Of a DNA stretch of 20,166 nucleotides, positions 1 to 13,325 are shown piece after piece. The position numbers and the translations under genes were made by a program. The stretch's first letter is position 1. Each line of letters begins with the position of its first letter. Source of the stretch: a virus; the IMG/VR virus record IMGVR_UViG_3300025168_000903, positions 1-20,166 of that record. One strand, given 5' to 3'. A model generated the notes under the pieces. The model worked only from the letters and a program-made list of their open reading frames with translations, made no database searches and was not told where the DNA came from.

Positions 1-389
1 CCTTGCCGCTGGCAAATGGTGGCACCGGCTCCACGACTTTAAGCGGTGCGGGTATCGCCGCGCTGGCGTCAGACCAAACTTTTACGGCGGCAAATCGTGG
101 CACTATCACCACTGATAATGACGGCTCACTGGACCTCGCCGTAACGAATAACTGGAAAATAACTACCGCCGGAAATCTCACGCTCACGTTCACCAACATC
201 GCCGCTGCCAACGGGCAGAGTGGCAATATCATTTTCGTCAATGCGAGCAATCACACGATTAGCCTGCACGCGAACACCAAGGGTGATGCCAATCTAGCCA
301 GCACAATATCGAAAACCGGCACATATTGGATCAGCTATATAGCCGATGGAACGAATGTGTATTGCACCACCAGCGCGGTGTTTGCCTAA
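1..389 (+). CDS. Tail fibre protein, C-terminal fragment (5' end outside window)
   Basis: This is an open frame running in from the window edge, with its first complete codon at base 3. It begins with the residues PLANGGTGST, the repeat motif that commonly joins the shaft and C-terminal head of phage tail fibres. The remaining ~110 residues are rich in Thr, Asn and Ala and alternate short beta-strand-like stretches (GNLTLTFTNI, GQSGNIIFVN, YWISYIADGTNVY). This matches the small beta-sandwich tip often found at fibre C-termini. The TTG at base 3 is very unlikely to be the true start, because the motif normally sits far inside a fibre. The stop TAA shares its last A with the ATG of the next gene, so the two are probably translationally coupled. 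The role inferred is receptor binding or an attachment base for the larger adhesin that follows. The N-terminal part and trimerisation region cannot be seen. Confidence 0.8.
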   Translation, partial: LPLANGGTGSTTLSGAGIAALASDQTFTAANRGTITTDNDGSLDLAVTNNWKITTAGNLTLTFTNIAAANGQSGNIIFVNASNHTISLHANTKGDANLASTISKTGTYWISYIADGTNVYCTTSAVFA

Positions 390-3300
390 TGGCGATTATC
401 CAGGGCAACTCAAAATCCGCGAGCGGGTTTGACACTACGCTCATCGAGGACTCGGTGTGGTTGGAAAATTATGACTATTTTACCAAAACCAATTTTGGCA
501 ATGGTACTGGTCAACCAAGACTTGTGTTTGCCGCGTGGATAAAGCGCACAAAATTCTCGGCAACCGATCAAACGATTTTTAACGGAATAGCCAATTATGG
601 TGGTTCTTGGAAAGGTAATAAATTCTTATTCCACGCCGACCACAAAATAGAAATTTACATTGACGATGTAGCGGGGACAAACGCAACCTACCAAACAGAC
701 GGGGTATTTCGCGATGTCGGATGGTATCACTTAATTTTAAGCATCGACGCAACCGTGACCGACTCGGTTCAGCTCTATGTAAATGGTATCAAAGAAGAAA
801 CTTTAACGCTCACATCAGGCACTGCACTGGCGGCAGCACCCGGCGTTTGGGGACACAGCGGTAACATAGCGATTGGTACTGATCTATCACTTGGAAACCC
901 GCTTTACGCTTACGTAGCACAGCCAGTGTTTCTTGCTGGTGAATCTATTCAGTCAACCACTGCCGTGACAGACATACTGGACAGCTTTGAATTTGGCACC
1001 AGTGGCAGTCAATTCGGCCCAAAATCCAGCGCTGCTATTACAACACTGGCCGCTAATGCTTTCAGTGAGGACAGTTTCGCGCTAGATTTTAGTGACAGCG
1101 CCCACCTTGGTCACGATAGCCGCCCGCATAATTTACTGGCTTATTCTGAACAGTTGGATCAGTGGACGGCTTCCGGCACGACTGCCGTAGCGAATGCGAT
1201 GGTTGCGCCAGACGGCTCTCAAACGATGGACACGCTTAGGGTTACGACTGGCAGCTCGAACATTTGGGAAAACCGACAATCGATACACGGCGTAGTCGAG
1301 ACCTCATCAGTCTACACGGTCTCGGGGTATTTCAAACATGATGGCACCAACAGGCCCATAATCAGCTTTATCAACCCAACCTCGCCATACAACAACATGG
1401 CAGAATTGGGATTTACTTGGTCCGGCGGAACGCCTACGCAAAGCCATTTTACCGGCACAGGTACTCCTGTCTTTACAGATGTAGGCAACGACATCTGGCG
1501 CATCTCGTTTCAAGTCACGACACACGCTACTGCTACGGATTTCAGAGTAAACGTTTTTCCGAACGGTGGGTATCTAGGAACCGATGTTGTCGGCGTTTGG
1601 GGTATGCAAGTCGAACAAGGCGGGTTGTCACCATACGTGCCTACGCCGAAAAATGTTCTCCTGCGAACAGAAGAATTTGACAATGCGTATTGGAGCAAAA
1701 TTGCTGGCGCGACCATAACCGCCGATCAAGCTGTAGCGCCAGACGGTACAACAACAGCTGAACTAGCGACAGCGGGCAACGCGCTCCACGGCAGTCTTTT
1801 TGCTCGAAGATATCTTACTTCTGCTGAAGTTGTCCCATCAACAAAGTATACTTTGTCGTGCTACGTTAAAAAAATAAACTATCGGTACATTCAACTCCGT
1901 CAACCAAACAGCAGATCAGCTACATTTGATTTCGATACTAAAACATTTGTAGGAGTCACGTCTGATATTGAATCAACTGGTTATGAAGACGTAGGTAATA
2001 ATTGGTATCGAATCCACAGCACATACACACAAGCATCATCTATTACAAATTTTATAGTTGATATTGCCTTTGCTAATTCATCTGGCACCAGCGGCTTCAC
2101 ACCAGCCGGAACAGAAACTGTTTATATTTGGGGCGCTCAATTTGAAACGGGCGGCCTGTCAACCTATCGTAAAATTTCCAGCACCGCTGCGGTTAACGTC
2201 GTCCCCAACAATTTCACACCGACTAGCATGTCGGCGGCAAATCAAAGCAGCAGCTCGCCGTCAAATGACGTTGCAATTTTGAATAAGCTAATTCCAAACA
2301 CCTCAATTGCATATTCCGAAGGCAACACCAAGCTCACGCACACCGGCGGCACAACAGTTGTACCGTCTACAATTTTCACGCGTAGCGGCAAATTTTATGC
2401 AGAGGTGCTGATAGGTACGACCGGAACTTGGTTTGGCTACAACGGGGTTGTCCCTGCCGACGATCAAGCTGCGCCCGATTGGGCATTAGGAGCCACTGAC
2501 GGCTACCTCTGGGTATCAAATGGAACATTAGCGCATCAAGGCGCTACACCAAGCATATCGACGACATATGGCAATGGTGATCGTCTTATGTTTGGTCTGG
2601 ACATGGATAACGGATGGCTGTTTATCGGCAAAAACAACGTTTGGTATGACAGTTCGGGAAGCAGCCACACTGATTTAACAAGCAGTAGCAATGCGGTTGC
2701 TACCAATTTGCTAACTGTCTCGTCTGACAGTTGGACGTTTGCACCAGGTGCTTCGCATGTCAGCGGGACGACGACGGAGCAAATCTTTTTAGAGGCAAGC
2801 TCTTGGGCTTACACAGCGCCAGCAAATTTTGTGCAATTAAGCTCGTCCAACCTACCAACACCTGAGCTACAAGGCGTAGACAATTTTTCGGTCACGCTGG
2901 GTACGGAAGCGGCGGTAGCGCCGACTGAAAATCTCATAAAGAACAGCGAAGATTTAAGCGCCGCATCTTGGTTTGACGCCGCAACTGTTACCGTTAATCA
3001 AGCTGCTAATCCCATCGATGGTGCGGTTACTGCCGATCTTATTGCCCGAAGCGCAACAAACGGTAAAAGGGTTCAAAGCCATGCATTGACCAGCGGTGCT
3101 ACCTATATTCATTCGGCGTACTTTAAAAATGTGTCTGTCAGTAACGGCGTCACCCGAATGTGGATGTGGGAGTCGGCAGCGGCTTACGCCAATTTAATTT
3201 GGATCACATGGACATCCGGTGTACCCGCTGTAACGTATAATCAAAACTTTGGTGGCTTGAGTCCAGCGGGCGGCTCAACTATCGAAGATGTCGGCGACGG

Positions 3301-5482
3301 CTGGTATCGAATCAGCTATGTTGCTGTTCCGAATAATTCAAATAGCCTTTTTGTATCATTTGAATGCTCAACGTCAGGGACGGGCGAAAGTTTGTACGTT
3401 TGGGGTGTGCAGCTTGAACTGGCAAAAAGCGGTGCCACTACGCCATCGACTTATGTGCCGACCTACACCAACACAGCTGCAAGTCTGCCGTATTCTGAAA
3501 AGCTTAACCTAATCGACAACACCACCACTGAAAACTATATCCGCAACAATACGATGGAAGGTGTGTTAGCTGGAACGCCGGGGACGGCTCCAACGCATTG
3601 GGGAGTGTACGGAAACGGCACAACTGTGGAAACAGTTGGATACGGCGTCACTGCTGATGGCGTTGAATACGTTGATATTAAATTTTCTGGTACGCCCACA
3701 TCTGATCCATATATAAATTTCGACGGAGTGGCTGACGGCATTTTGACATCTCCTAGCCAGCTTTGGTCCATGTCGAGCTATATTGCTTTGCAAGCTGGTT
3801 CGATGACTAACATTACGAATATTCAATTTGTTCGGGCTGACCGGACAATAACCGGCGGCTACATCACCGCAGCGGCTCCGTTGACAATTACACCAACGTC
3901 TGCGCTGAACAGGTACGAAGCGCCCACAACCACTTCCAGTGGTGGAACGGTCGCAAGAGTAACGCCAAAACTGAACATCAACTGGGATGGCAGCGGAGCA
4001 ATCGACGCGACGTTCAGAATTGGCAACCCGCAGATGGAAAAGCGGAGCAGCGCATCGCCGGTTATTAAGACTAGCCAGTATACTATGAATCACAACCTTG
4101 CTTTGCAATCGCAAACAATGGACAACGCAACATGGGTCAAGTCAGGCTGTGGGGTTTCAGCAAATGTTGCCGTTGCTCCCGATGGCACAACAACGGCTGA
4201 AGGTATTCAAGCTCTTAATTCTGTAAGCTCAGAAAAGCGTTTATCCCAGACGTTGTCGACACAACTAGCTGGTACATTTATCACGGGAAGTTTTTATGTA
4301 AAGGCCGCACGGTTATCGTTTGTTGCTGTAACTGTTTATAACTCAGTTAATTCCAAAGGCGTTCGCCGTTTTGTAAATTTAACAAATGGAGCCATAGGCA
4401 CAAATAACGATTTTAATGTCCCGGCAGAACCTGCGTTTGCTGTCGAAACCGTAGGCAATGGCTGGTATCGCATATCCGCATCTATGCGGTTACAAAGCCC
4501 CGGCGCTCCGATTTTACGTATCCAACCGGCGCTTAGTGATGGGAATTTAGCATATGTAGCATCAGAGAGTAATGTAGACGAAATCTATGTCTGGGGAGCG
4601 CAGTTTGAGAAAACATTTAATTCCCCACGAACGTATTTGCCAACCACCACCGCCGCTGTATTTGAACCAACACGACGAACCTCGCTGAATAGTTTCGTTG
4701 AAATTCAGAAGAATCGCACTGCATCTGAAACATGGGCGTGGCGGTTTAACGACTACGATAAAGAGTATGCAGTTTCCACCACCGCAACATATCAAGACAT
4801 TCGCGCTCAAACCGGCACCAACAACTGGTTAAGCCATGCAATTCGGATTGCTCCAGACGCCGGAACAGCGGCGGGCGCAGTGAGCCACGGGTTTGCAACC
4901 GGACATACAGTCGTAACGCACGGCTTAACGTCAAGCCGGTACGCGGTTTTATTGTTCCCACGCGCTAACGGAAATATTCATTTTTACCATCCCGACTTGG
5001 CCGCTGGGAAACTTTTGGTTTTAAACAGTGATGCTGGCGAGATCACAAGCGATGCGATCAGAGACATCACCACGACCTCGTTTTCAATCGATTCCGGCGT
5101 GGCTCAAGGCGTATACGATTACCTCGTGCTAGAGGACGGCGGTCTGGCGTCGATGGGGACCTATATCGGCAACAACAGCGGCGCTGGACCATATATTTCC
5201 TTGCCACACTCCAGTGCATTGTTCACGCGACGATCTGCGGCGGTCTGTAGTTTTTGGACGAATAACTCCAAATCTCCGGGCTACAACGAGAACGGAAATT
5301 ACACGCGCTGGAACGACGGGCAAGCCGAAGGAACTGGCAGTTTAAAAATCGACATGCTTTCGGGTGCGGTCAAAATACGTGACGCTTACGGCGACCAGAA
5401 TGCCAGTGGCGTCACCTACTATTATATCTCGCTCGGCGAGTTGTCGGGCGGCGGTGACTTACCACCGATTTACGGACGATAG
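389..5482 (+). CDS. Giant multi-lectin tail fibre/adhesin (1697 aa; LamG, SPRY, CBM-like repeats, DUF7483-like)
   Basis: The ATG at 389 overlaps the upstream stop (TAATG), and I prefer it to an in-frame ATG at 326 that lies inside the previous gene. Visible modules are a LamG/concanavalin-like domain at residues ~20-200 (AAWIKRTKF, WYHLILSID, VQLYVNGIKEE); two carbohydrate-binding-like repeats from residues 248 and 422; a SPRY-like domain at ~637-815 (SGKFYAEVLIG, LGATDGYLWVSNG, FGLDMDNGWLFIG); three more repeats from 848, 1049 and 1236; and a DUF7483-like end at ~1495-1690 (VVTHGLTSSRYAVLLF, NASGVTYYYISLGE). Such modules are known from marine phage fibres and bind surface glycans. There is no signal peptide, membrane segment or visible chaperone domain. 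GC content is higher than in the downstream genes and varies between modules, which suggests recombination. A receptor-binding role is confident at family level; the glycan targets are unknown. Confidence 0.88.
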   Translation: MAIIQGNSKSASGFDTTLIEDSVWLENYDYFTKTNFGNGTGQPRLVFAAWIKRTKFSATDQTIFNGIANYGGSWKGNKFLFHADHKIEIYIDDVAGTNATYQTDGVFRDVGWYHLILSIDATVTDSVQLYVNGIKEETLTLTSGTALAAAPGVWGHSGNIAIGTDLSLGNPLYAYVAQPVFLAGESIQSTTAVTDILDSFEFGTSGSQFGPKSSAAITTLAANAFSEDSFALDFSDSAHLGHDSRPHNLLAYSEQLDQWTASGTTAVANAMVAPDGSQTMDTLRVTTGSSNIWENRQSIHGVVETSSVYTVSGYFKHDGTNRPIISFINPTSPYNNMAELGFTWSGGTPTQSHFTGTGTPVFTDVGNDIWRISFQVTTHATATDFRVNVFPNGGYLGTDVVGVWGMQVEQGGLSPYVPTPKNVLLRTEEFDNAYWSKIAGATITADQAVAPDGTTTAELATAGNALHGSLFARRYLTSAEVVPSTKYTLSCYVKKINYRYIQLRQPNSRSATFDFDTKTFVGVTSDIESTGYEDVGNNWYRIHSTYTQASSITNFIVDIAFANSSGTSGFTPAGTETVYIWGAQFETGGLSTYRKISSTAAVNVVPNNFTPTSMSAANQSSSSPSNDVAILNKLIPNTSIAYSEGNTKLTHTGGTTVVPSTIFTRSGKFYAEVLIGTTGTWFGYNGVVPADDQAAPDWALGATDGYLWVSNGTLAHQGATPSISTTYGNGDRLMFGLDMDNGWLFIGKNNVWYDSSGSSHTDLTSSSNAVATNLLTVSSDSWTFAPGASHVSGTTTEQIFLEASSWAYTAPANFVQLSSSNLPTPELQGVDNFSVTLGTEAAVAPTENLIKNSEDLSAASWFDAATVTVNQAANPIDGAVTADLIARSATNGKRVQSHALTSGATYIHSAYFKNVSVSNGVTRMWMWESAAAYANLIWITWTSGVPAVTYNQNFGGLSPAGGSTIEDVGDGWYRISYVAVPNNSNSLFVSFECSTSGTGESLYVWGVQLELAKSGATTPSTYVPTYTNTAASLPYSEKLNLIDNTTTENYIRNNTMEGVLAGTPGTAPTHWGVYGNGTTVETVGYGVTADGVEYVDIKFSGTPTSDPYINFDGVADGILTSPSQLWSMSSYIALQAGSMTNITNIQFVRADRTITGGYITAAAPLTITPTSALNRYEAPTTTSSGGTVARVTPKLNINWDGSGAIDATFRIGNPQMEKRSSASPVIKTSQYTMNHNLALQSQTMDNATWVKSGCGVSANVAVAPDGTTTAEGIQALNSVSSEKRLSQTLSTQLAGTFITGSFYVKAARLSFVAVTVYNSVNSKGVRRFVNLTNGAIGTNNDFNVPAEPAFAVETVGNGWYRISASMRLQSPGAPILRIQPALSDGNLAYVASESNVDEIYVWGAQFEKTFNSPRTYLPTTTAAVFEPTRRTSLNSFVEIQKNRTASETWAWRFNDYDKEYAVSTTATYQDIRAQTGTNNWLSHAIRIAPDAGTAAGAVSHGFATGHTVVTHGLTSSRYAVLLFPRANGNIHFYHPDLAAGKLLVLNSDAGEITSDAIRDITTTSFSIDSGVAQGVYDYLVLEDGGLASMGTYIGNNSGAGPYISLPHSSALFTRRSAAVCSFWTNNSKSPGYNENGNYTRWNDGQAEGTGSLKIDMLSGAVKIRDAYGDQNASGVTYYYISLGELSGGGDLPPIYGR
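1130..1651 (+). repeat. Adhesin carbohydrate-binding-like repeat 1 (residues 248-421)
   Basis: This is a protein-level repeat of ~174 residues. It opens with NLLAYSEQLDQWTASGT, continues through VAPDGSQTMDTLRV, YTVSGYFKHDG and DVGNDIWRISF, and closes with VWGMQVEQGGLSPYVPT. The same series of anchors recurs in repeats 2, 3 and 5. DNA identity between copies is low, so this is an old or imported duplication. Local GC is about 51% (hand count over 1381-1620). Confidence 0.8.
1652..2182 (+). repeat. Adhesin carbohydrate-binding-like repeat 2 (residues 422-598)
   Basis: It opens with NVLLRTEEFDNAYWSK, directly after the YVPT end of repeat 1. It carries VAPDGTTTAELA, YTLSCYVKK, DVGNNWYRIHS and IWGAQFETGGLSTYR. 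Its 3' half is markedly AT-rich (about 37% GC by hand count over 1861-2100), unlike repeat 1 next to it, so the two copies probably have different histories. Confidence 0.8.
2930..3480 (+). repeat. Adhesin carbohydrate-binding-like repeat 3 (residues 848-1031)
   Basis: It opens with NLIKNSEDLSAASWFDAA and carries AVTADLIARS, YIHSAYFKN, DVGDGWYRISY, VWGVQLELAKSG and the closing STYVPTYTN. It follows the SPRY-like module. It is the same family as repeats 1, 2 and 5, and Trp and Tyr positions that could line a sugar-binding face are kept. Confidence 0.78.
3533..4090 (+). repeat. Adhesin divergent repeat 4 (residues 1049-1234)
   Basis: It occupies the place and length of another repeat but is divergent. 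It opens with NYIRNNTMEGVLAGTPG and THWGVYGNGTT, has TADGVEYVDIKFSG and the closing IGNPQMEKRSSASPVIKTS, and lacks the DVGNxWYRI anchor. It may belong to a related carbohydrate-binding family, with a beta-sandwich fold only inferred. Confidence 0.55.
4094..4660 (+). repeat. Adhesin carbohydrate-binding-like repeat 5 (residues 1236-1424)
   Basis: It opens with NLALQSQTMDNATWVKSG and carries VAPDGTTTAEGIQ, ITGSFYVKA, TVGNGWYRISAS, VWGAQFEKTF and RTYLPTTTAA. It closes the second block of repeats just before the DUF7483-like C-terminal region. Its VAPDGTTTAE box is identical at protein level to that of repeat 2 but uses different codons. Confidence 0.78.
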
Positions 5483-5493
5483 GAAATACAACA

Positions 5494-6114
5494 ATGATTG
5501 CATTAGAATCGAGTGGACGAATTGTTTATCAAGGGTCTTGGACTTTAAAACTACAAGAAATGATAGGGCTTGTTGGTAATAAGCAACCAAAGTTGCCGTT
5601 TGATACTTCCTCTGGAACACTAAGGAATGTAGGGTTTGCAAAACCAGTCTTGGACAAGTATCAAGTAGCGGGTACAGAAACTGGTGAAGTAAAAAATAAC
5701 GAGTGGCTTATTACTGCCGCTGCCAAAGATATTTCTATAGAATCTGCTAAAGTATTAGCAAAAACCGAAGTATCTCAAAAAAGATATGAAGTAGAAAATG
5801 GTGGAATATTTTTAAATAATAAATTTTATGCAACAGACAGAGATTCACAATCTGCAATTAGTCGCATGACTGGAACAATTGCCTGGAAAGCAGCTGCCAC
5901 AGTTGTTAAAGACGAGAAAACTTTTATTTCTGATTCTGAGTTTGTTGATACAGACATGGACGCTCTAAAGACTGCTGTTGCTGCTCACGTTGCAGCTTCT
6001 TATGCTAAGGAAAAAGAATTTGTAACAGCCATTAACGCTGCTGACACTATTGTTGCCCTGCGTCTAATTAACTTAACATCTGGATGGGCAGAAGTACCCT
6101 TGAAAGACTTTTAA
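5494..6114 (+). CDS. DUF4376-type tail fibre-associated protein (206 aa)
   Basis: An AGGAAA lies ahead of the ATG and the frame opens 11 bases after the adhesin stop. Residues ~97-195 fit the DUF4376 pattern: RYEVENGGIFLNNKFYATDR followed by a DSQSAISR segment, a short ITGTIAWK-like strand, then a helical end with AAVAAHVAASYAKEKEFVTAI. This domain is usually the C-terminal part of proteins encoded beside phage and prophage tail fibres, and its biochemical role is not established. Residues 1-95 look like the usual N-terminal partner, ending in NEWLITAAAKDIS. GC content falls sharply here compared with the adhesin. A fibre-assembly or fibre-accessory role is inferred from position. The next small ORF starts within its stop codon (TAATG). 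Confidence 0.72.
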   Translation: MIALESSGRIVYQGSWTLKLQEMIGLVGNKQPKLPFDTSSGTLRNVGFAKPVLDKYQVAGTETGEVKNNEWLITAAAKDISIESAKVLAKTEVSQKRYEVENGGIFLNNKFYATDRDSQSAISRMTGTIAWKAAATVVKDEKTFISDSEFVDTDMDALKTAVAAHVAASYAKEKEFVTAINAADTIVALRLINLTSGWAEVPLKDF

Positions 6115-6242
6115 TGCCAACTGAGAAAAAACCAGAAGTTATTAAAACAACAAGCCATTCTAAATGGGTAATTAGTCATGGCGATATGATCGAACTGTTA
6201 AAAATCCTAGAGGATAAAAGGGCGTCAAAGGTTAGGAACTAA
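6114..6242 (+). CDS. Small hypothetical protein (42 aa)
   Basis: The ATG overlaps the stop of the DUF4376 gene (TAATG) and the frame stays open for 43 codons to a TAA one base before the next ATG, so it exactly fills the gap between its neighbours. The product begins MPTEKKPEVIKTTSHS and ends LLKILEDKRASKVRN. It is basic and hydrophilic with a probable short amphipathic helix around GDMIELLKILEDKR, and has no Cys or membrane segment. There is no clear Shine-Dalgarno, so translation would depend on coupling. Exact gap-filling favours a real gene, but I recognise no family. An untranslated linker remains possible. Confidence 0.55.
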   Translation: MPTEKKPEVIKTTSHSKWVISHGDMIELLKILEDKRASKVRN

Positions 6243-6243
6243 A

Positions 6244-6621
6244 ATGCGTATATTTATTTTAATTTTAGCATTTCTTGCTATACCATTGCACTCAGCTGTA
6301 GCAACTACTTGGACTAAAGGTGATATAGTTACAGTGTTTTTTATATGTATCGAAGAAGAGGACATAATGGATGTTGCTTATGCAGATTCTAAAAATGAAT
6401 TAAAATACGCCAGCGCCATAAAAATTAAACAATTTAGTAATAAGTGTAGCTTTGTTTATCCACCTATTACGCTACGCATAAACGATGTCATAGCAAGTTA
6501 CACAGATTATAAAAAACAAGAAACTTCTATTTTAAAACTACACGATCCTAAGACAGATTTAAAAGCTGGTTATATTATAGCGGAAGGCAGACCAGCCAGT
6601 GCTAAAGAAATGTCACATTAG
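6244..6621 (+). CDS. Exported small protein with signal peptide, unknown function (125 aa)
   Basis: An AGGA at 6234-6237 sits six bases before the ATG. The N-terminus is a textbook Sec signal: MR, then a hydrophobic core IFILILAFLAIPL, then HSAVA with an Ala-X-Ala site predicting cleavage after residue ~20. There is no lipobox. The mature part (~105 residues) has just two cysteines (FFICIEE and NKCSFVYP), which could form a disulfide in the periplasm, and a Lys-rich, beta-strand-leaning sequence. The gene is clearly AT-rich. It lies between fibre genes and is followed at once by a candidate promoter. Possible roles include superinfection exclusion, receptor masking or a spanin-like lysis accessory, but nothing in the sequence decides between them. 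I do not recognise the family. Confidence 0.7.
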   Translation: MRIFILILAFLAIPLHSAVATTWTKGDIVTVFFICIEEEDIMDVAYADSKNELKYASAIKIKQFSNKCSFVYPPITLRINDVIASYTDYKKQETSILKLHDPKTDLKAGYIIAEGRPASAKEMSH

Positions 6622-6622
6622 C

Positions 6623-6651
6623 TTGACAACTGTTGAGAATAATGGTAAAAT
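6623..6651 (+). promoter_or_regulatory. Candidate sigma70-type promoter ahead of the collar-fibre gene
   Basis: A perfect -35 hexamer TTGACA (6623-6628) is followed after exactly 17 bases by TAAAAT (6646-6651), one mismatch from the -10 consensus. It fills the 48-base gap between the signal-peptide gene and the collar-fibre gene. The expected start of transcription, ~6657-6659, falls on the AAGGA Shine-Dalgarno at 6657-6661, so the mRNA would have a leader of only about 12 bases. It would serve the collar fibre, scaffold and capsid genes. No experimental support is available. Confidence 0.5.
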
Positions 6652-6669
6652 AAACTAAGGACTAGACTA

Positions 6670-7158
6670 ATGACAGTAGAATCTGCCAGCTACATCAGCC
6701 AGCTAAGTACATCCAATCCAGCTGCTGGTGATAACATTTCTGAAGGTGACGATCATATTCGTCTTATAAAAACTGTCCTTCAGACGCAATTTCCAAATTT
6801 AAGCACTGCGGCTGTTAACCCAACAGCAGCGCAGATGAACAAGTTAGGGTTTGAAACTGGTACGGTTATGATGTACGCATCTAACTCAATACCTACGACT
6901 CAGACAATCAGCGGCATAAATGACTTTTTGTTATGTGACGGGTCATCATTTTCAAGATCTACATATTCTGCTTTGTTTGGAATAATTGGGGTTACTTTTG
7001 GCGGATCAGGTGGTAACTTTAATGTTCCAGATTTTAGAACATTTTTTACAGCAGGTGTCGGAAGCGGGTTTGTTTTAGGAACCTCTCAAACAGCTACCGC
7101 ATCTTCCGGAACAGCTGTTTTAAAAGTGCAACCCATTAACTACATTATAAAGACCTAA
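6670..7158 (+). CDS. Tail-collar domain fibre protein (162 aa)
   Basis: The start is set by AAGGA at 6657-6661, eight bases before the ATG. Residues 5-45 (SASYISQLSTSNPAAGDN and the following EGDDHIRLIKTVLQTQFPN) match the N-terminal attachment segment shared by many short phage fibres. Residues ~65-138 match the phage Tail_Collar domain: GTVMMYASNSIPT, FLLCDGSSFSRSTYSALFGI, VTFGGSGGNFNVPDFRTFF. Such proteins trimerise and act as short tail fibres or fibre tips in receptor binding. The C-terminus is short and ends INYIIKT, which matches the usual 'xxYIIK' ending of collar proteins. It is therefore a complete, compact fibre in a separate gene from the giant adhesin. Confidence 0.85.
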   Translation: MTVESASYISQLSTSNPAAGDNISEGDDHIRLIKTVLQTQFPNLSTAAVNPTAAQMNKLGFETGTVMMYASNSIPTTQTISGINDFLLCDGSSFSRSTYSALFGIIGVTFGGSGGNFNVPDFRTFFTAGVGSGFVLGTSQTATASSGTAVLKVQPINYIIKT

Positions 7159-7159
7159 A

Positions 7160-7411
7160 ATGGCGATTGATTACAGAGGTGAAAAGTTTTCTGGATACAA
7201 CAAGCCTAAGCGTACCTCTGGAAAAAACAAAAAGTTTGCTGTATTGGCAAAGCAAGGCAGTACGGTTCGCCTGATTCGATTTGGTGATCCTAATATGTCT
7301 ATTAAAAAAGACCAACCCAAGCGGCGTAAAAGCTTTAGAGCTAGGCACCGCTGCGATTCTAACCCACCCAGTAAGCTAACTGCACGCTACTGGTCTTGCA
7401 AAAAATGGTGA
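7160..7411 (+). CDS. Conserved small phage protein, RFGDP...KSFRARH...YWSCKKW family (83 aa)
   Basis: The gene starts two bases after the collar-fibre stop with no obvious Shine-Dalgarno, so it is probably coupled. N-terminal YRGEKFSGYNKPKRT and KKFAVLAKQGSTVRLIRFGD lead into the strongly patterned C-terminal half: a DPNM-IKKDQP-RRKSFRARH string, then a Cys, then LTARYWSCKKW. This Arg/Lys-rich block with two Cys, His and Trp recurs in many marine phage proteins, sometimes as the tail of larger ones, and its function is not established as far as I know. A virion-associated or nucleic-acid-contacting role is possible from its charge and its position just before scaffold and capsid genes, but that is inference. 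Confidence 0.75.
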   Translation: MAIDYRGEKFSGYNKPKRTSGKNKKFAVLAKQGSTVRLIRFGDPNMSIKKDQPKRRKSFRARHRCDSNPPSKLTARYWSCKKW

Positions 7412-7416
7412 TTGAA

Positions 7417-7512
7417 ATGCCCCCAGGACAACCTTACAATCAAAAACCTAAAAAGAAAAAAAAGAAATTAGGAAACAAAATTGAATGTGGCTGTACAGAA
7501 TGTAAGTGCTAG
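7417..7512 (+). CDS. Lys-rich miniprotein ending in a CxCxxCxC motif (31 aa)
   Basis: The frame reads MPPGQPYNQKPKKKKKKLG, then NKIECGCTECKC and TAG. It is too short for most gene callers but sits neatly between two genes. In-frame ATG 7405 and GTG 7408, both overlapping the previous gene's end, would give 35 or 34 residues; there is no clear Shine-Dalgarno to decide. The C-terminal Cys-X-Cys-X2-Cys-X-Cys arrangement suggests binding of zinc or another soft metal, and the six lysines suggest contact with nucleic acid or acidic protein. The Lys codons contain an A8G run that is a potential slippery site. No function is recognised. Confidence 0.55.
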   Translation: MPPGQPYNQKPKKKKKKLGNKIECGCTECKC

Positions 7513-7514
7513 CC

Positions 7515-7691
7515 ATGACAACGCCGTACAAAAGGAAAAAAGGTACTAAAAAACCTGGACGATATGTAACAATAGCAGGTAAGCAAGTCTATACAACAGA
7601 CCCCAAAACTATTATCAGAGAAGAAACTATAGAAGCTATGGGAAAAGCTGTAGATAAGACAACTAAATTTTTTAAAGGTTTATTTAAATAA
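7515..7691 (+). CDS. Small basic hypothetical protein (58 aa)
   Basis: I chose the ATG at 7515, two bases after the preceding stop; an in-frame GTG at 7506 lies inside the preceding miniprotein. The product starts MTTPYKRKKGTKKPGRY, then has a short strand-like VTIAGKQVYTTDPKT and a helix running from IIREETIEAMGKAV to the Lys/Phe end KFFKGLFK. It is strongly basic at both ends with no Cys or membrane span. It belongs to a run of tiny genes between fibre and scaffold genes. I do not recognise the family; a minor virion component is a guess from context. Confidence 0.6.
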   Translation: MTTPYKRKKGTKKPGRYVTIAGKQVYTTDPKTIIREETIEAMGKAVDKTTKFFKGLFK

Positions 7692-7693
7692 CA

Positions 7694-7933
7694 ATGGCTA
7701 ACCCATCAACCTTATCAAGAGAACAAGCTAGCCAAGCTAGTGTGATTCTTGAAAATCCGGTGTTTAAGGAAACACTACAGAACATAAGTAGCAGACTAAT
7801 ATCCCAATGGACAATAGCTGATACTGTAGAAGAAAGAGAACTTTGTTGGATGAAGCTAAACGCTTTGAGTTCCGTTAAGGAAGACCTGCAAGCTTTTATC
7901 CATAACGACAAAATTGAAAACGGAGAGAAATAA
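7694..7933 (+). CDS. Conserved small helical protein upstream of scaffold (79 aa)
   Basis: It starts two bases after the previous stop and ends in a TAATG overlap with the scaffold start. It is predicted mostly helical: SREQASQASVILENPVFKET, then LISQWTIADTVEERELCWMK and LNALSSVKEDLQAFIHND. The pattern of a short 'NPxFKE' helix, then a W with an 'xxRE.xWxxL..L..' helix, is familiar from small proteins encoded just before scaffold or portal genes in many podophages and siphophages. Its role is unassigned. Coupling to the scaffold suggests co-production during head assembly. Functional assignment beyond that is not supported. Confidence 0.7.
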   Translation: MANPSTLSREQASQASVILENPVFKETLQNISSRLISQWTIADTVEERELCWMKLNALSSVKEDLQAFIHNDKIENGEK

Positions 7934-8916
7934 TGAGTGAGGCACCGACTAATCCCGAAGGGGAAGTCAAACAGCCACAACTTAACATGTTCGATGTCAT
8001 GTTTGGAAGTGAGGAAAACACTAATCCGGAACAAACAATCGAAGAACCTACCATTGATAACTCAGAAAAGTATGAAGCTGAAGCCTTTGACGAGGCCGAA
8101 GAAGAAGTTGCGGAAGAGTTTGAAGAGGTAGACGAGTACGAGGTAGCTGACGAGGAAACTCCTACAGAAACCACACAAGCCTACACTGTTAAAGTAGATG
8201 GTGAGGAATTTGAGGTTACACTGGACGAGCTACGAGATGGCTATCAGCGGCAAGCGGACTACACCCGTAAATCGCAATCTCTAGCAGAGCAACGTAAAGC
8301 TTACGAAGCTAATCTACAAGCAGTCCAAAACGAGCGTCAACAGTATTCTCAAGTTTTGGAACAAATGTCTCAAACTCAAAACTACGAACTACAGCAGTTT
8401 GAGAACATTGATTGGAAGGAACTAAAAGACGATGATCCTATGGAATACATGGAAAAACGTCTTGAGTATCAAGAATCCAAAGACAGAATAACTCAGCTGA
8501 ATAACGAACGTGCCCGAGTGCAACAGCAGTCTCAGCAAGAGTTTAATGATATAGTATCTCAGAAGGTACAGCAAGAGGCAGAACTTTTAGCCAAGGCTTT
8601 ACCAGAATACTCTGAGCCGGGATCAACATTAAAATCTGATCTTAGAAGCTATGCTCTTAGTCTTGGTTTCCCGTCCAATGAAATAGATAGCATCACTGAC
8701 CACAGGGTTGTAATGGTACTGCACAAAGCTATGATGCAGGACAATGCAGCTAAAGGGGTTAAGAAAGTTAAAATTGCTCCCAGAGTTGTTAAATCAGGAA
8801 CACCTCAGACTAAGACGCAAAAAGTCAAAAAGGTTGCCCAGGTTAAACGAGAGAGGTTGACGAAAACAGGTAATCCTAAAGATGCTGCAAATGTTTTTCT
8901 GGATTTAATCTCATAA
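7933..8916 (+). CDS. Capsid assembly scaffolding protein (327 aa)
   Basis: The start has GGAG at 7922-7925 with seven-base spacing and overlaps the previous stop. Residues ~1-80 are very acidic with repeated Glu/Asp. Next comes YTVKVDGEEFEVTLDELRDG with YQRQADYTRKSQSLAEQRKA, a signature of scaffolds from marine podoviruses. Residues ~100-225 are a long Gln/Glu-rich coiled coil (QVLEQMSQTQNYELQQF, RLEYQESKDRITQLNNERAR), and residues ~275-310 are basic (KGVKKVKIAPRVVKSG, KVKKVAQVKRERLTK), as expected for the coat-binding end. It lies directly upstream of the capsid gene. Scaffolds guide coat assembly and leave or are degraded on packaging. No protease motif is visible in it or nearby. Confidence 0.88.
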   Translation: MSEAPTNPEGEVKQPQLNMFDVMFGSEENTNPEQTIEEPTIDNSEKYEAEAFDEAEEEVAEEFEEVDEYEVADEETPTETTQAYTVKVDGEEFEVTLDELRDGYQRQADYTRKSQSLAEQRKAYEANLQAVQNERQQYSQVLEQMSQTQNYELQQFENIDWKELKDDDPMEYMEKRLEYQESKDRITQLNNERARVQQQSQQEFNDIVSQKVQQEAELLAKALPEYSEPGSTLKSDLRSYALSLGFPSNEIDSITDHRVVMVLHKAMMQDNAAKGVKKVKIAPRVVKSGTPQTKTQKVKKVAQVKRERLTKTGNPKDAANVFLDLIS

Positions 8917-8936: not shown

Positions 8937-9893
8937 ATGGCACAGCCAACTGGTGTATACGTTACGTTTTCCTCCAAGGGTCTTCGTGAAGACTTGGAAA
9001 ATGTAATTTACGATATTTCCCCAACTGACACGCCTTTCATGTCGATGGGCAGTCGCTCAGACGCGGTTGCAGTTAGTCACGAATGGCAAACTGATTCTTT
9101 GGCAGCAGTTGCCAATAACTTCCACGAAGAAGGAGCAACGCTGACGGCAGCAGAGCCAGCAGCTACTACTCGTGTTGGTAACGTTTGTCAGATCAGTCTC
9201 AAGACGACTCTGGTATCCGGTACGCTTGATGCGGTTTCAAAAGCTGGACGCAAGGAAGAGCTTGCCTACCAAATGTCCAAGCGTTCCAAAGAACTCAAGC
9301 GCGACATGGAACGTGCAATGGTTGGCGTCAATGTAGCTAAAGCTGCAATGGCAGCTGACACTACCGTGCGTAAGCTTGGTTCATTGACTACTTGGGTCAA
9401 CACCAACATCTCTAAGGCATCTGATGGTGCCAACGGTGCTGGTGCGGGTGCAGCGGTTCGTACTGACGGTACGGCCCGTGCGTTTACCGAAGCCCTTCTT
9501 AAAGCGGCAATCCTGTCTTCCTATAACGAAGGCGCTGACATTAAGTATTTGATGATGGCTCCTGCCCAAAAACAAACCTTCTCCAGCTTTGTTGGTGTTG
9601 GTGGTGGCAGTGGCGTCAGTAACTTTAATGACGTTGCTGATCAGCGCATCATTGGCGGCATGGATGTTTACGTCAGTGACTTTGGTGAAATGGCGGTTGT
9701 ACCTAATCGCTTCCAACGGGCGCGTGATGTATGGCTTCTTGATCCTGAGTACTACGGCGTAGCTTATCTACGTCCGTTCTTCCAGCGTGAAGTTGCTAGT
9801 ACGTCTGACGGTGAGCAACGTGCGATCATCGCTGAGTACACTCTTGTTTGCAAAAACGAAAAAGCTCTCGCAGCTGTGTACGACTTGTCGTAA
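8937..9893 (+). CDS. Major capsid protein, DUF5309/SU10 family (318 aa)
   Basis: The ATG follows TAGGAG. The sequence fits the SU10-type (DUF5309) coat family over its full length: an early GLREDLENVIYDISPTDTPF segment, HEWQTDSLAAVANNFHEEGA, an ISLKTTLVSGTLDAVSKAGR strand, the spine-helix-like ELAYQMSKRSKELKRDMERA, then LMMAPAQKQTFSSF, GMDVYVSDFGEMAVVPNRF and the C-terminal YLRPFFQREVASTSDG with IIAEYTLVCKNEKALAAVYD. Coats of this family have the HK97 fold and assemble T-number shells; in SU10 itself the head is elongated. Codon use is richer in C-ending codons than in neighbouring genes, as expected for high expression. It follows scaffold by 20 bases and is followed by a hairpin. Confidence 0.93.
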   Translation: MAQPTGVYVTFSSKGLREDLENVIYDISPTDTPFMSMGSRSDAVAVSHEWQTDSLAAVANNFHEEGATLTAAEPAATTRVGNVCQISLKTTLVSGTLDAVSKAGRKEELAYQMSKRSKELKRDMERAMVGVNVAKAAMAADTTVRKLGSLTTWVNTNISKASDGANGAGAGAAVRTDGTARAFTEALLKAAILSSYNEGADIKYLMMAPAQKQTFSSFVGVGGGSGVSNFNDVADQRIIGGMDVYVSDFGEMAVVPNRFQRARDVWLLDPEYYGVAYLRPFFQREVASTSDGEQRAIIAEYTLVCKNEKALAAVYDLS

Positions 9894-9901
9894 TCTAATC
9901 A

Positions 9902-9925
9902 GGGGGAGGGGTAATTCCCTCCCTC
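9902..9925 (+). terminator. GC-rich hairpin after the capsid gene (attenuator/partial terminator)
   Basis: GGGAGGG at 9904-9910 pairs perfectly with CCCTCCC at 9917-9923. G-U and G-C pairs outside (9902-9903 with 9924-9925) and a G-U pair inside extend this to about ten pairs around a four-base TAAT loop. There is no U-run after it; the next bases are TATTAGGAG, the following gene's Shine-Dalgarno. It may therefore act as an attenuator, an mRNA 3'-end stabiliser for the capsid transcript, or an inefficient terminator. Confidence 0.7.
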
Positions 9926-9928
9926 TAT

Positions 9929-9934
9929 TAGGAG
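9929..9934 (+). promoter_or_regulatory. Shine-Dalgarno TAGGAG after the hairpin
   Basis: TAGGAG lies five bases before ATG 9940 and four bases after the paired part of the hairpin. It fixes the start of the next gene at 9940 and rules out a longer reading from 9787 that would overlap the capsid gene. Confidence 0.7.
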
Positions 9935-9939
9935 TAAAC

Positions 9940-10248
9940 ATGAACGACCCTATTAAAACAACGTTTAAGTATGATCATGGTGAAGACAAGGTTATACTTA
10001 ATAATGTACAAGACATACAGCCTATCATAGAGCTTAACAAAAAAGAACAAAACAACGATTCTATGTATGGCATTGGTGAGAACGCAGCGGGTATGCGTAA
10101 AGTAGCCAGTATTCCTTTGGTGGTTATTGAAAAATGGAAGCGTGAATTAGGCGTCGATATTATGAATAAAAACGACTGGCCTAAAATTAAACAGCTTCTT
10201 AACGATCCTGAGAATAGATTTTTTAGGACTAATGAAAGCAAACTGTAA
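9940..10248 (+). CDS. Conserved small head/neck-region protein (102 aa)
   Basis: The start at 9940 is set by TAGGAG. The product has an N-terminal strand region (TTFKYDHGEDKVILNNVQDI), then QPIIELNKKEQNN, a Gly/Met linker with GENAAGMRKVASIPLVVIEK, and a C-terminal helix WPKIKQLLNDPENRFFRTNE. This 'DVQPIxExNK... MRKVAxIPLxVIxxW... LLNDPxNRFxRT' layout is familiar in podophages between the coat and adaptor genes, where it is carried as a conserved hypothetical protein. A part in head completion is plausible from position only. It ends in a TAATG overlap with the adaptor gene, so the two are probably coupled. Confidence 0.75.
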   Translation: MNDPIKTTFKYDHGEDKVILNNVQDIQPIIELNKKEQNNDSMYGIGENAAGMRKVASIPLVVIEKWKRELGVDIMNKNDWPKIKQLLNDPENRFFRTNESKL

Positions 10249-10898
10249 TGGCTCTTTCTACGTTTTCAGAACTCAAAACATCTGTAGCAAACTATCTCAA
10301 CAGGGACGACCTTACAAGCGTCATCCCTGATTTCATAACGCTTACTGAAAATCGTATCAATAGAGAACTGAGAGCTAGAGCTAACGTAAGCAGGGTAAAT
10401 ACGACCACTACTTCCGGAACAGACCTTTACGATTTGCCAGCTGATTTAATTGAGCTTAGAAGTGTTAGCCGTGTTTCAAGCAATAACAACACTTCTCTAT
10501 CTTACATGACTCCAGAATCTGGAATTAGAGAATACGGCACTACTGCAAACGGTTCCCCAAAAGCATATTCCAATATGGGAAAAGCAATAAAGCTTATTCC
10601 TACACCGGATTCAGCATATACTATAGAGTTAATCTATTACAGCAAACTTGCCGGATTGTCCGACAGCGTAACTACCAATAATATCCTAGCAGAGTTTCCA
10701 TCGTTGTACCTTTACGGTGCGTGTCTAGAAGGTGCTATATTCCTAAATGATTCTGATGAAATTACCAGATTTGATGCTATCTTTAACAGAACTTTGGTAA
10801 GCATCCAAGAGTCAGAAGAAAAAGCTAGGTATGGCGGCAATGTTATGACCATGACAGTCCAAGGCGATCCTGGTTCTCTAGTTCGTAGGGGTGCGTAA
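10248..10898 (+). CDS. Head-tail adaptor protein, SU10-adaptor-like (216 aa)
   Basis: The ATG overlaps the preceding stop (TAATG). The N-terminus FSELKTSVANYLNRDDLTSV followed by IPDFITLTENRINRELRARA is the typical opening of adaptor proteins of the SU10/P22 gp4-like group, where helices dock on the portal. A beta-rich middle follows (LYDLPADLIELRSVSRV, KAIKLIPTPDSAYTIELIYY), then helices again (SLYLYGACLEGAIFLND, ITRFDAIFNRTLVSIQESEE). Length suits the family. The protein would form a dodecameric ring below the portal and connect to the nozzle encoded just downstream. Portal itself is not in the window. Family assignment is from pattern recognition and is fairly secure. Confidence 0.82.
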   Translation: MALSTFSELKTSVANYLNRDDLTSVIPDFITLTENRINRELRARANVSRVNTTTTSGTDLYDLPADLIELRSVSRVSSNNNTSLSYMTPESGIREYGTTANGSPKAYSNMGKAIKLIPTPDSAYTIELIYYSKLAGLSDSVTTNNILAEFPSLYLYGACLEGAIFLNDSDEITRFDAIFNRTLVSIQESEEKARYGGNVMTMTVQGDPGSLVRRGA

Positions 10899-11104
10899 TG
10901 GCTACTAAGTTTCCAGATATAGAAGTTGACGGTGGTGCAAGCAATAGGATCAGTAAACCTGGAGGTACTAATTGGGTTCTTGATAATTTTAATATTATAC
11001 AAGAGGGAGGCGGAAATTTGCTAACTGAAAATAACAAATATATTACCCTCCAAGAGTTTAAAAATGTAGTATGGACAACTGACGAAGCTACTGGCAATGG
11101 CTAA
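10898..11104 (+). CDS. Small hypothetical protein between adaptor and nozzle genes (68 aa)
   Basis: The start has TAGGGG at 10886-10891 with six-base spacing and overlaps the adaptor stop; the stop lies eight bases inside the next gene. The product begins MATKFPDIEVDGGASN, has a Gly/Asn-rich middle (KPGGTNWVLDNFNIIQEGGG) and a short C-terminal segment YITLQEFKNVVWTTDEAT. No membrane span, Cys or known motif is seen. Double overlap with structural genes and a good Shine-Dalgarno support it being real. Function is unknown; a minor neck or tail component is only contextual. Confidence 0.65.
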   Translation: MATKFPDIEVDGGASNRISKPGGTNWVLDNFNIIQEGGGNLLTENNKYITLQEFKNVVWTTDEATGNG

Positions 11105-12665
11105 ACAAATATTTGATATATCCTCTAAGTCAGGAGCGTTTTCCTTAAATAAGGATTTGTCTCCCTATGACATGCCTCCAATGTTTTTCAGTGACGCTCA
11201 AAATGCTAGGTTTGTAGACGGCAAAGCTGGTAAAATTTTAGGCCACTCTCAAGTTTTAGGAACACCTTCAGTGGCTCCATTGTGGGCTACTGATTTCTTA
11301 CAGGGTAGTAATAGCCTTTGGATTTATGGAGGCGCTACGTCTTTACACAAGATAACAGGCACAACCCATGCAGCTGTAACGCGCAGCAGCGGGGCCTACA
11401 CTACATTGTCAGGAACTTCCAATAGCTGGTGCGGTGGTGTTCTGGGTGGCGTATTGGTCTTAACAAATGGTCTAGATGTACCTCAGAGTTTGACCCAGGC
11501 CGGTAGCGTGTTTACAGACTTGCCTAATTGGCCCTCTACCTTGAAGTGCAAATCTATTGTACCGTTTAAGAACCATCTAGTTGCTCTCAATCTTACTGAC
11601 TCTGGTACAGCAAAACCTTTTACAATTAGGTGGAGTGATGCTATACCAGCAGGCGCAGCAACCAACGGTACAGACACTTGGAACACAGGGAGTGCTGCTT
11701 CACAATCTGCTGAGACCTCTATATCGTCAGCAGAAGGGCATATTTTAAACGCCTTACAAATGGGCAACGAGTTAATAGTTTACCTAGAGGATAGTATATA
11801 CGCTCTTAATTTTGTAGGCGGTGCGTTTACCTTCCAAGTACGACAAAAGTTTAAAGATACAGGATTGTTTGCTAAAGAGGCTGTGGTTGATCTTGGCGAT
11901 GGCCGTCATGTTTTAATGACCACTGACGATGTTGTGTTGCATAATGGCAACAGTATTAAAAGCGTAATTGAAGACAGAGTTAGAGAGTTTTTGTTTGGAG
12001 AGATTGACTCAGGCGCTGCTGATAAAACATTTTTAGTCCATAACAAACACAAATCAGAAGTTTGGATTTGCTATCCTGCAACTAACGCTACTAATGATTT
12101 TCCTAATTCTGCTGTCATATGGAACTACAAAGATAACACCTGGTCTACTAGGGATTTACCAAATGTCAACTACATTGCCAAAGGTGTTGTAAATCCTGTT
12201 TTGGCTAACACCTGGACAGCGTCTACATCAACTTGGGAAAAGTCTACTCTTAACTGGGCGCAAGCACCATACAACCCTGTTATCAATTCGTTACTGATGT
12301 GTGGTACAAACGATACTAAATTTTACCTAGCAGACTCTTCAACTACATTTGACGGGACTAGCTTTTTAACAAAGCTGGAACGCATTGGATTACATTCTGG
12401 TCGCACAGATGCTGTTAAATCTGTTACTAAGGTGTTTCCCAGAATAGAAGGAACAGGAAGTGTCAACATAAGTGTCGGCTCTGAGTTACAACCGTTTCAA
12501 GGTGTGTCCTATAATGATCCAGTGTCTTTTGAAATAGGTTCAGACTTTAAAGTAGACTGTAGAGTTAAGGGTAGGTACATTGCTATTAAAATAGAAAGCA
12601 GTGCTGATACACAATTTGAGCTATCTGGAATGGCTATAGAGGCAGAGGTGGTGTCGAAGAGATGA
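11097..12665 (+). CDS. Tail nozzle / tail tubular B-like protein (522 aa)
   Basis: The ATG lies in the end of the previous gene, with no strong Shine-Dalgarno. The N-terminus DLSPYDMPPMFFSDAQNARF followed by VDGKAGKILGHSQV is the usual opening of podovirus nozzle proteins. Blade-like beta repeats follow: LWIYGGATSLHKITG, WCGGVLGGVLVLTNGLDVPQ, IVPFKNHLVALNL, ALQMGNELIVYLEDSIYALN, GRHVLMTTDDVVLHNGNSIK, EVWICYPAT with AVIWNYKDNTWSTRDLPNVN. These suggest a beta-propeller, as in T7 gp12 and P22 gp10. A C-terminal beta-sandwich-like part follows (SVNISVGSELQPFQG). In such phages it forms the distal hexameric tube of the short tail. Position after the adaptor agrees. I am confident of the class but not of the closest relative. 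Confidence 0.8.
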   Translation: MAKQIFDISSKSGAFSLNKDLSPYDMPPMFFSDAQNARFVDGKAGKILGHSQVLGTPSVAPLWATDFLQGSNSLWIYGGATSLHKITGTTHAAVTRSSGAYTTLSGTSNSWCGGVLGGVLVLTNGLDVPQSLTQAGSVFTDLPNWPSTLKCKSIVPFKNHLVALNLTDSGTAKPFTIRWSDAIPAGAATNGTDTWNTGSAASQSAETSISSAEGHILNALQMGNELIVYLEDSIYALNFVGGAFTFQVRQKFKDTGLFAKEAVVDLGDGRHVLMTTDDVVLHNGNSIKSVIEDRVREFLFGEIDSGAADKTFLVHNKHKSEVWICYPATNATNDFPNSAVIWNYKDNTWSTRDLPNVNYIAKGVVNPVLANTWTASTSTWEKSTLNWAQAPYNPVINSLLMCGTNDTKFYLADSSTTFDGTSFLTKLERIGLHSGRTDAVKSVTKVFPRIEGTGSVNISVGSELQPFQGVSYNDPVSFEIGSDFKVDCRVKGRYIAIKIESSADTQFELSGMAIEAEVVSKR

Positions 12666-12919
12666 CGGAGTTTTTAAGGTTTGATCCTTCAACTTGCCCT
12701 CAAGATTTAGAAGACATCCCTAAGTTTGTAGACGAGATGCTTTTACAAATTAAGATTGTCGTAGACCTTTTAAGAGATGGTCACTTAGACGTAATTTATG
12801 TAGAGCCTGATAAACCACAACAAGGCGATATTAGATATGCTGACGGAAGTACATGGAATCCTGGATCAGGAGAAGGAATTTATTTTAGAAATTCCGCTGC
12901 CGCGTGGGTTAAATTATAA
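12662..12919 (+). CDS. Small tail-region protein with GDIRYADGSTWNPGSGEG motif (85 aa)
   Basis: The start overlaps the nozzle stop (ATGA), with GAGGTG eleven bases upstream. The N-terminal ~45 residues are helical (CPQDLEDIPKFVDEMLLQIK, IVVDLLRDGHLD). The C-terminal ~35 residues carry the recognisable PDKPQQGDIRYADGSTWNPG with SGEGIYFRNSAAAWVKL, a short beta module that recurs at C-termini of marine phage tail proteins. It is possibly a small needle or tip trimer attached to the nozzle, but that is inference. The last 83 bases are shared, in another frame, with the proposed start of the next gene. Confidence 0.7.
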   Translation: MTEFLRFDPSTCPQDLEDIPKFVDEMLLQIKIVVDLLRDGHLDVIYVEPDKPQQGDIRYADGSTWNPGSGEGIYFRNSAAAWVKL

Positions 12920-13325
12920 ATTTGTAAATTACAAACACAATTCTTTATTTTCAAAGTTGTCTAAATGTTATGACTATTTCGAGAAAACGATACAGCGTAG
13001 TCTATGTTCTGATATTTACAATGCTAATGATCTGGTTAAACGAGTTGTTAAGGGAACAAGCGACTTATGGATTGCCTACGATGAAGATAAAGAGATTAAA
13101 GGATGTTTTATAATTGGGTTTGCACACTATCCTCAAAGTATAGGCATATTGACAGAAGGGATTAGCGGAGAGTTTGATTTTAAAAACGCTACTCCTAAAA
13201 TTGAAGAATATTATAAAGACTTGGGATATGAGTTTTGGGAAATGACAGGTCGAAGAGGTTGGGAAAAAATAATGTCTCCTTTAGGATACGAGTTTAAAAC
13301 GGTAACTTTAAGAAAGAGGTTATAA
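12837..13325 (+). CDS. GNAT-like (acyltransferase-fold) phage protein (up to 162 aa, start uncertain)
   Basis: The only upstream in-frame ATG is at 12837, with a weak AAGG 11 bases before it; it overlaps the previous gene by 83 bases. The body resembles GNAT-type proteins found among podophage tail genes: a beta hairpin DLWIAYDEDKEIKGCFIIGF, then the AHYPQSIGILTEGISGE stretch, a helix NATPKIEEYYKDLGYEFWEM, then TGRRGWEKIMSPLGYEFKTV and a basic end. The Gly-rich acetyl-CoA loop typical of active enzymes is not clear, so activity is doubtful. It may modify a virion protein or be structural. The true N-terminus could be shorter, with a non-ATG start near 12957 or a frameshift from the gene before. 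Confidence 0.62.
   Translation: MLTEVHGILDQEKEFILEIPLPRGLNYKFVNYKHNSLFSKLSKCYDYFEKTIQRSLCSDIYNANDLVKRVVKGTSDLWIAYDEDKEIKGCFIIGFAHYPQSIGILTEGISGEFDFKNATPKIEEYYKDLGYEFWEMTGRRGWEKIMSPLGYEFKTVTLRKRL

Follow-up and report, generated by a model that had tools for sequence, protein, structure and literature searches.

Spike-fibre-type repeats within the LamG-SPRY-DUF7483 backbone of a tailed-phage adhesin

How can a phage adhesin come to hold carbohydrate-binding-like repeats within a backbone that close relatives carry without them? The question is raised by a gene for a 1697-aa marine phage adhesin (389-5482, forward strand, as are its parts and the two genes that flank it) in the IMG/VR virus record IMGVR_UViG_3300025168_000903. 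The window analysed here is that entire record, a tailed-phage structural region of 20,166 bp, and the PHROG matches of the adhesin are 'tail protein' and 'virion structural protein'. We consider it likely that the protein is a mosaic receptor-binding fibre or adhesin, in which two acceptor loops hold domains of the type found in the spike of the gene transfer agent (GTA) RcGTA, with most of the first DUF7483 unit (D1) lost at the second loop.

Domain order of the adhesin

The chain runs LamG, repeats R1 and R2, NNFT/SPRY-like, the first DUF7483 strand, repeats R3, R4 and R5, and DUF7483 units 2 and 3 (D2 and D3). A preliminary description of the window had proposed repeats set into a LamG-SPRY-DUF7483 backbone, and the domain searches agree, giving LamG, two repeats, a SPRY-like module, three repeats and a DUF7483-like end; its count of two and then three repeats is right if the divergent R4 is included. 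The adjacency that it took to be usual, from LamG to NNFT/SPRY to DUF7483, was found in 88 unique open reading frames (ORFs) that run LamG-SPRY-D1-D2-D3 without interruption.

The LamG-like module (389-1117) extends up to LDFSDSAHLGHD and belongs to Laminin_G_3, PF13385 (E 1.3e-10; 42 bits, gathering cutoff 27.6), with a match to the family hidden Markov model (HMM) at E 2e-26. It was missed under default HMMER filters and recovered with --max; Pfam gave 0 families on the whole chain, and LamG and DUF7483 were matched once the chain was searched in pieces. The NNFT segment and SPRY-like module lie at 2207-2869 (family HMM E 1e-29). This module scores 14.6 bits against Pfam SPRY PF00622, below the gathering cutoff of 26.3, and is named SPRY-like because the homologous region of the repeat-free relative L061 has a SPRY fold (Z ~20 to Ash2L SPRY). 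NNFT was found close to where it had been placed (about 2210), but the LDFSDS motif starts at 1082 and not at about 1120.

The repeats R1 (1124-1654), R2 (1655-2188), R3 (2930-3478), R4 (3533-4093) and R5 (4094-4648) are five stretches matching NCBIfam NF048003 (GTA_spike_fiber), a phage and GTA head-spike-fibre domain, with a whole-protein E of 2e-93. The cutoff of 36 bits is passed singly by R1 (90.2), R2 (106.9), R3 (54.0) and R5 (82.7); R4 alone falls below it (31.6) and is handled as a related divergent repeat, homologues of which follow an R3-like repeat in L002, L003 and L004. A profile of 31 tandem pairs (R1-R2 of the window and 30 others) matches the RcGTA head spike fibre Rcc01080 (6tb9) at E 3.8e-70, and also phage E217 gp45, Pa193 gp46 and a tail fibre gp17.

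The AlphaFold2 (AF2) model of R1-R2 (window adhesin residues 228-640; predicted local distance difference test, pLDDT, 77.7; predicted template modelling score, pTM, 0.66) has two separate all-beta domains at model residues ~22-183 and ~200-361, with a linker between them that contains YVPT-PK-NVLL. The repeat boundary at R1/R2 is thus predicted to fall in a linker and not in the middle of a domain. The 'YVPT/N-L' boundary first described for all repeats is literal at R1/R2 only; R3 ends in YVPT, R5 in YLPT, and R2 and R4 in neither.

The two sites in related fibres

A capsid-protein search gave 80 loci, in 24 of which the ORFs 5' of the capsid gene were inspected. L061 (capsid 93% identical), L067 (87%) and L072 (83%) carry a LamG-SPRY-DUF7483 protein of 747-840 aa without repeats, located in all three between a MATNKKI-type upstream gene and a small downstream gene. 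The preliminary description had raised the possibility that all relatives carry the repeats at these points, and these syntenic relatives, with capsids 83-93% identical, do not. Among the other loci, L060 (capsid 91%) has LamG-SPRY twice, and the fragment L063 (88%) has the same joint.

At site 1 (upstream edge 1118-1123), the window reads ...LDFSDSAHLGHD-R1-R2-...VVP-NNFTP..., and L061 reads ...LDYSDSSNIVND-ASSKG-NNFTP.... Precise closure of the backbone had been expected at both insertion points; it was found at site 1, within ~6 residues in the empty relatives, but not at site 2, where most of D1 has gone. The L061 backbone model (pLDDT 83.2, pTM 0.83; site positions read from match ranges and DSSP) shows SPRY and LamG folds (Foldseek; VIA Z ~17-21), with site 1 between D255 and N261. 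LamG/pentraxin matches to this model extend past the site, to residues 279-286, and SPRY matches confined to that region start at 274-289. Therefore, site 1 is most likely a loop that leads into the final strand of the LamG sandwich and not an interdomain linker, so that the first placement of this site between domains is probably incorrect.

Site 2 requires a closer look at DUF7483 (PF24299), which consists of three tandem units of ~105 aa, as determined by hhalign with sub-alignments of 52 backbones (D1/D2 E 8e-17, probability 98.95; D1/D3 1.3e-13; D2/D3 3.2e-13; 13 control pairs with LamG or SPRY pieces, E from 5.5e-4, for LamG against SPRY, to 0.94). The C-terminal part of the window adhesin passes the gathering score (47.9 bits vs 27) over profile positions 136-327 of 330 only, and is not a full-length DUF7483 of three units, as D1 is not detectable. 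What is kept of D1 is a first-strand segment (VDNFSVTLG) at 2870-2929, placed by alignment to L061 and L060, which runs to the upstream edge of site 2. The backbone-HMM match ends just past this strand, at state 464, and restarts at state 585 inside D2; residues 1424-1512, the 89 aa before and into D2, gave no D1, D2 or D3 score above shuffles. R3-R5 therefore replace most of unit 1, and the break that had been described as lying between SPRY and DUF7483 lies inside DUF7483, after its first strand.

A clean insertion at both sites is ruled out for site 2 by the HMM gap and the absence of D1. A D1 remnant in residues 1424-1512 was also rejected, the real score being reached by 1100 of 2000 shuffles for D1, 110 for D2 and 239 for D3, and a KNR-like motif with MAFFT pairing in the same residues was not significant as a trace of D1. 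The segment at the expected place of D1 (4649-4891) has no recognised homology (D1 HMM 0.6 bits). It is followed by a weak D2 (4892-5137; Pfam profile from 136, D2 HMM 13.1 bits) and by D3 (5138-5482; D3 HMM 46.6 bits), which ends in ...LPPIYGR and the stop codon. In the L061 model, site 2 falls after the D1 strand 502-508 and before the strand 530-535, and it appears to be a loop within a beta-sandwich domain. LamG and SPRY matches took up the PDB structure lists for this model, so that the DUF7483 units were barely probed, and the DUF7483 profile had no PDB relatives by sequence. For the window adhesin itself, we infer the loop geometry.

Both sites are also occupied by other modules in other fibres. 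The backbone sample (188 ORFs after 90% clustering, 108 of them with both SPRY and D3) is non-random, as its members were retrieved for their resemblance to L061 and its clade, or through the capsid and repeat searches. Of the SPRY-bearing ORFs, 25 have a broken match or an additional module, and one of these (L178) is an overlap and not an insertion. Site 1 (states 204-264) is occupied in 13 (the window, L141, L161, L187, L199, L213, L220, L239, L249, L270, L295, L303 and L306) and site 2 (states 464-474) in 16 (the window, L060, L063, L213, L219, L246, L249, L258, L263, L265, L268, L270, L278, L287, L289 and L295). The site 1 cargo is F5/8 type C (PF00754) in L239 and L249 (E 5e-9 and 3e-10), with the same junction in L270, and DUF7483 units, including triplets, in L161, L187, L199, L220 and L306; that of L141, L213 and L303 had no Pfam match above cutoff. 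With at least three kinds of cargo, site 1 must have been used in at least three events. At site 2, the cargo elsewhere is a LamG-SPRY module.

Inserts were also found at other places, between D1 and D2 in L141 and as tandem DUF7483 units in L187, L303 and L306. In L306 (phage C72C1) and L187, DUF7483 arrays of the order D1-D1-D2-D3-D2-D3 lie between LamG and SPRY, and a second DUF7483 is present at the end.

A wider proposal, which we put forward tentatively and at slightly less than even weight, is that viruses make wide use of the LamG-SPRY-DUF7483 backbone as a scaffold that accepts cassettes. Its two loops at beta-sandwich edges would have taken up unrelated glycan-binding-type domains repeatedly and independently (RcGTA-spike repeats, F5/8C, DUF7483 triplets and LamG-SPRY), re-arming the frame with fold and virion attachment undisturbed.

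For site 2, the strongest competing explanation is an unequal fusion, near D1, of a repeat-array fibre with a DUF7483 fibre, which replaced D1; there would then be no acceptor loop at this place, and site 1 would be the sole true loop insertion. The absence of D1 past its first strand fits such a fusion, as does the R3-R4 tandem, which also occurs in L002, L003 and L004, fibres without this backbone, and DUF7483 units themselves have recombined, for example in the L187 array. However, the window break at state 464 is within ~10 HMM states of the loop into which LamG-SPRY was inserted in 15 other fibres (472-474). We regard fusion as a serious contender, although a somewhat doubtful one.

Possible role and origin of the repeats

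In the acceptor-loop mechanism, a widespread marine backbone (LamG, SPRY-like and triple-unit DUF7483) would offer two loops at the edges of its beta-sandwiches. The loop that precedes the last LamG strand (loop 1) would have received a pair of RcGTA-spike-type carbohydrate-binding-like domains. At the loop that follows the opening strand of DUF7483 unit 1 (loop 2), three repeats would have been gained and the rest of the unit lost. The LamG, SPRY-like and DUF7483 sandwiches could serve as the frame that keeps the fold and the attachment to the virion, with the inserted repeats projecting from it and adding polysaccharide-binding faces, so that one chain would have several binding sites. As both ends of an insert would leave a loop near each other, cassette exchange at the loops could change or broaden glycan preference with the frame unbroken. 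The comparisons show which domains are present, that the sites are empty in syntenic relatives, that other modules have repeatedly used both sites and that most of unit 1 has gone; glycan binding, the effect on specificity and recombination as the route are what we infer from them.

The best structural matches of the R1-R2 model are Pa193 (Z 20.8, 183 aligned, root-mean-square deviation, rmsd, 2.3) and E217 (Z 19.0, 178 aligned, rmsd 2.2), and CBM4-2 is matched at Z 12.7 (140 aligned, rmsd 2.5). The predicted fold thus resembles that of carbohydrate-binding modules (CBMs), in line with the first description of the repeats as carbohydrate-binding-like, and because of these RcGTA, phage and CBM relatives the repeats may bind carbohydrate. 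For the RcGTA spike fibre, cell binding increases with capsular polysaccharide (PMC10218006). The repeats could instead be passive spacers that lengthen the fibre, as a common fold alone shows no function. This is unlikely, given that the nearest solved relatives are the capsule-binding spike fibre of RcGTA and phage fibre and baseplate proteins, and that F5/8C, another ligand-binding fold, occupies site 1 elsewhere.

The RcGTA fibre (GhsB, Rcc01080; 6tb9) shares the domain family of R1, R2, R3 and R5, but it is a 325-aa protein with one matched stretch (residues 58-277), whereas the window has four or five copies inside an adhesin. The RcGTA spike is on the GTA head, and the window gene lies among structural genes, next to ones of the tail-fibre type. 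The order of the backbone is that of marine LamG-SPRY-DUF7483 fibres, such as L061 and those of the pelagiphages HTVC105P, HTVC201P and HTVC031P, and the locus is shared too in L061, L067 and L072; these fibres differ from that of the window in being without repeats. In the three pelagiphages, which are annotated isolates (L139, L140 and L142), separate genes encode LamG-SPRY and DUF7483; the two lie side by side, their ends touching or overlapping, and the modules are fused elsewhere. DUF7483 of the window differs from PF24299 in lacking most of the first unit.

Identity among the window repeats is 19-33%. In a FastTree phylogeny of 244 repeat domains, in which R4 was not included, their common ancestor spans 212 leaves; the sister of R2 is a repeat of L317 (support 0.97), and R1 and R3 are sisters at a long distance (support 0.93). 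As the tree does not unite the window repeats in one group, they did not arise by one recent local amplification. Among 179 cases from other proteins with several repeats, the closest neighbour in the tree came from the protein itself in 3. A recent duplication within the gene was also rejected, as the repeats do not resemble each other at the DNA level (blastn E 0.14 or worse) and the tree disagrees with it.

As syntenic relatives carry the backbone free of repeats, the repeats were probably added, that is, gained in the window lineage. The two kinds of protein do meet in one genome, since L154 and L363 have a tandem-repeat ORF of the NF048003 type (9625-11403 and 4779-6605, respectively) shortly downstream of an uninterrupted LamG-SPRY-DUF7483 fibre ORF (5710-8148 and 934-3336). 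An ancestral origin of the repeats, followed by their loss in the relatives, would fit their strong divergence from each other, which is consistent with age, but is very improbable with 88 unique uninterrupted backbones, syntenic close relatives included, against one with repeats.

Several points weigh against a gain of modules at two acceptor loops. Site 2 is not a clean insertion, keeping only the first strand of D1 before the repeats and units 2 and 3, and no remnant of the rest of D1 was detected there in the window. That the direction was gain and not loss rests on parsimony. Repeats and backbone share one ORF in the window only, among 149 unique repeat-bearing and 202 unique backbone-bearing ORFs (run without HMMER filters), and none of these is an intermediate with the same backbone and one repeat set; no near-identical donor of the window repeats is known. 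Nearly all LamG-SPRY cases at site 2 have one junction, and the cases of DUF7483 at site 1 have another; therefore, few events have been inherited by many fibres, and common descent makes the recurrence counts too high.

Domain shuffling in phage receptor-binding proteins and mosaicism of fibres are well known (Smug et al. 2023, PMC10684548); LamG is not mentioned in that text, and the acceptor loops and the triplication of DUF7483 come from the present comparisons. DUF7483 was not found in the open-licence PubMed Central (PMC) literature, nor was pelagiphage together with SPRY domain, and among the related open-licence PMC papers listed, those on spike fibres included, no title or shown abstract describes these acceptor loops. 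New here are the pair of acceptor loops, the triplication of DUF7483 and the unusual joining of two otherwise separate domain repertoires. Fibre mosaicism becomes testable in this way, as a common marine adhesin would accept different sugar-binding-type modules at two defined loops. DUF7483, a domain of unknown function that is frequent in the marine phage contigs examined, is built of three repeated units, and these undergo gain, loss and recombination. For most uncultured marine phages the host range is, to our knowledge, not known, and the module content at both loops could become a readable predictor of it.

Neighbouring genes

The window encodes a head scaffold, a major capsid protein, tail-collar and fibre-type proteins and an endolysin-like protein. 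Upstream of the adhesin gene is the C-terminal part of a fibre-like gene (3-389, from the ORF list), cut by the window edge; its counterpart in relatives is ~339 aa, begins MATNKKI... and is located directly 5' of the adhesin gene. Directly 3' of the adhesin gene, 5494-6114 encodes a DUF4376, tail-fibre-type protein (PF14301 E 5e-11; PHROG tail fibre), which is a probable assembly partner of the adhesin. These fibre-type neighbours suggest a fibre locus.

Other proteins are present at the fibre locus in L069, L073, L076, L084, L086, L092 and L094, and the locus is therefore hypervariable. The ORFs at the fibre position of L092 (5965-7788) resemble, from a look at the sequence alone, a dioxygenase and a substrate-binding protein.

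Further downstream in the window, 12837-13325 encodes a 162-aa protein that overlaps the preceding gene and has no Pfam or NCBIfam match at E 0.01. The Peptidase_S74 intramolecular chaperone domain is better known from tailspikes; here, it was found (PF13884, E 2.8e-12) at the C-terminus of a 362-aa DNA-ejection-like virion protein (13327-14415; PHROG 4287).

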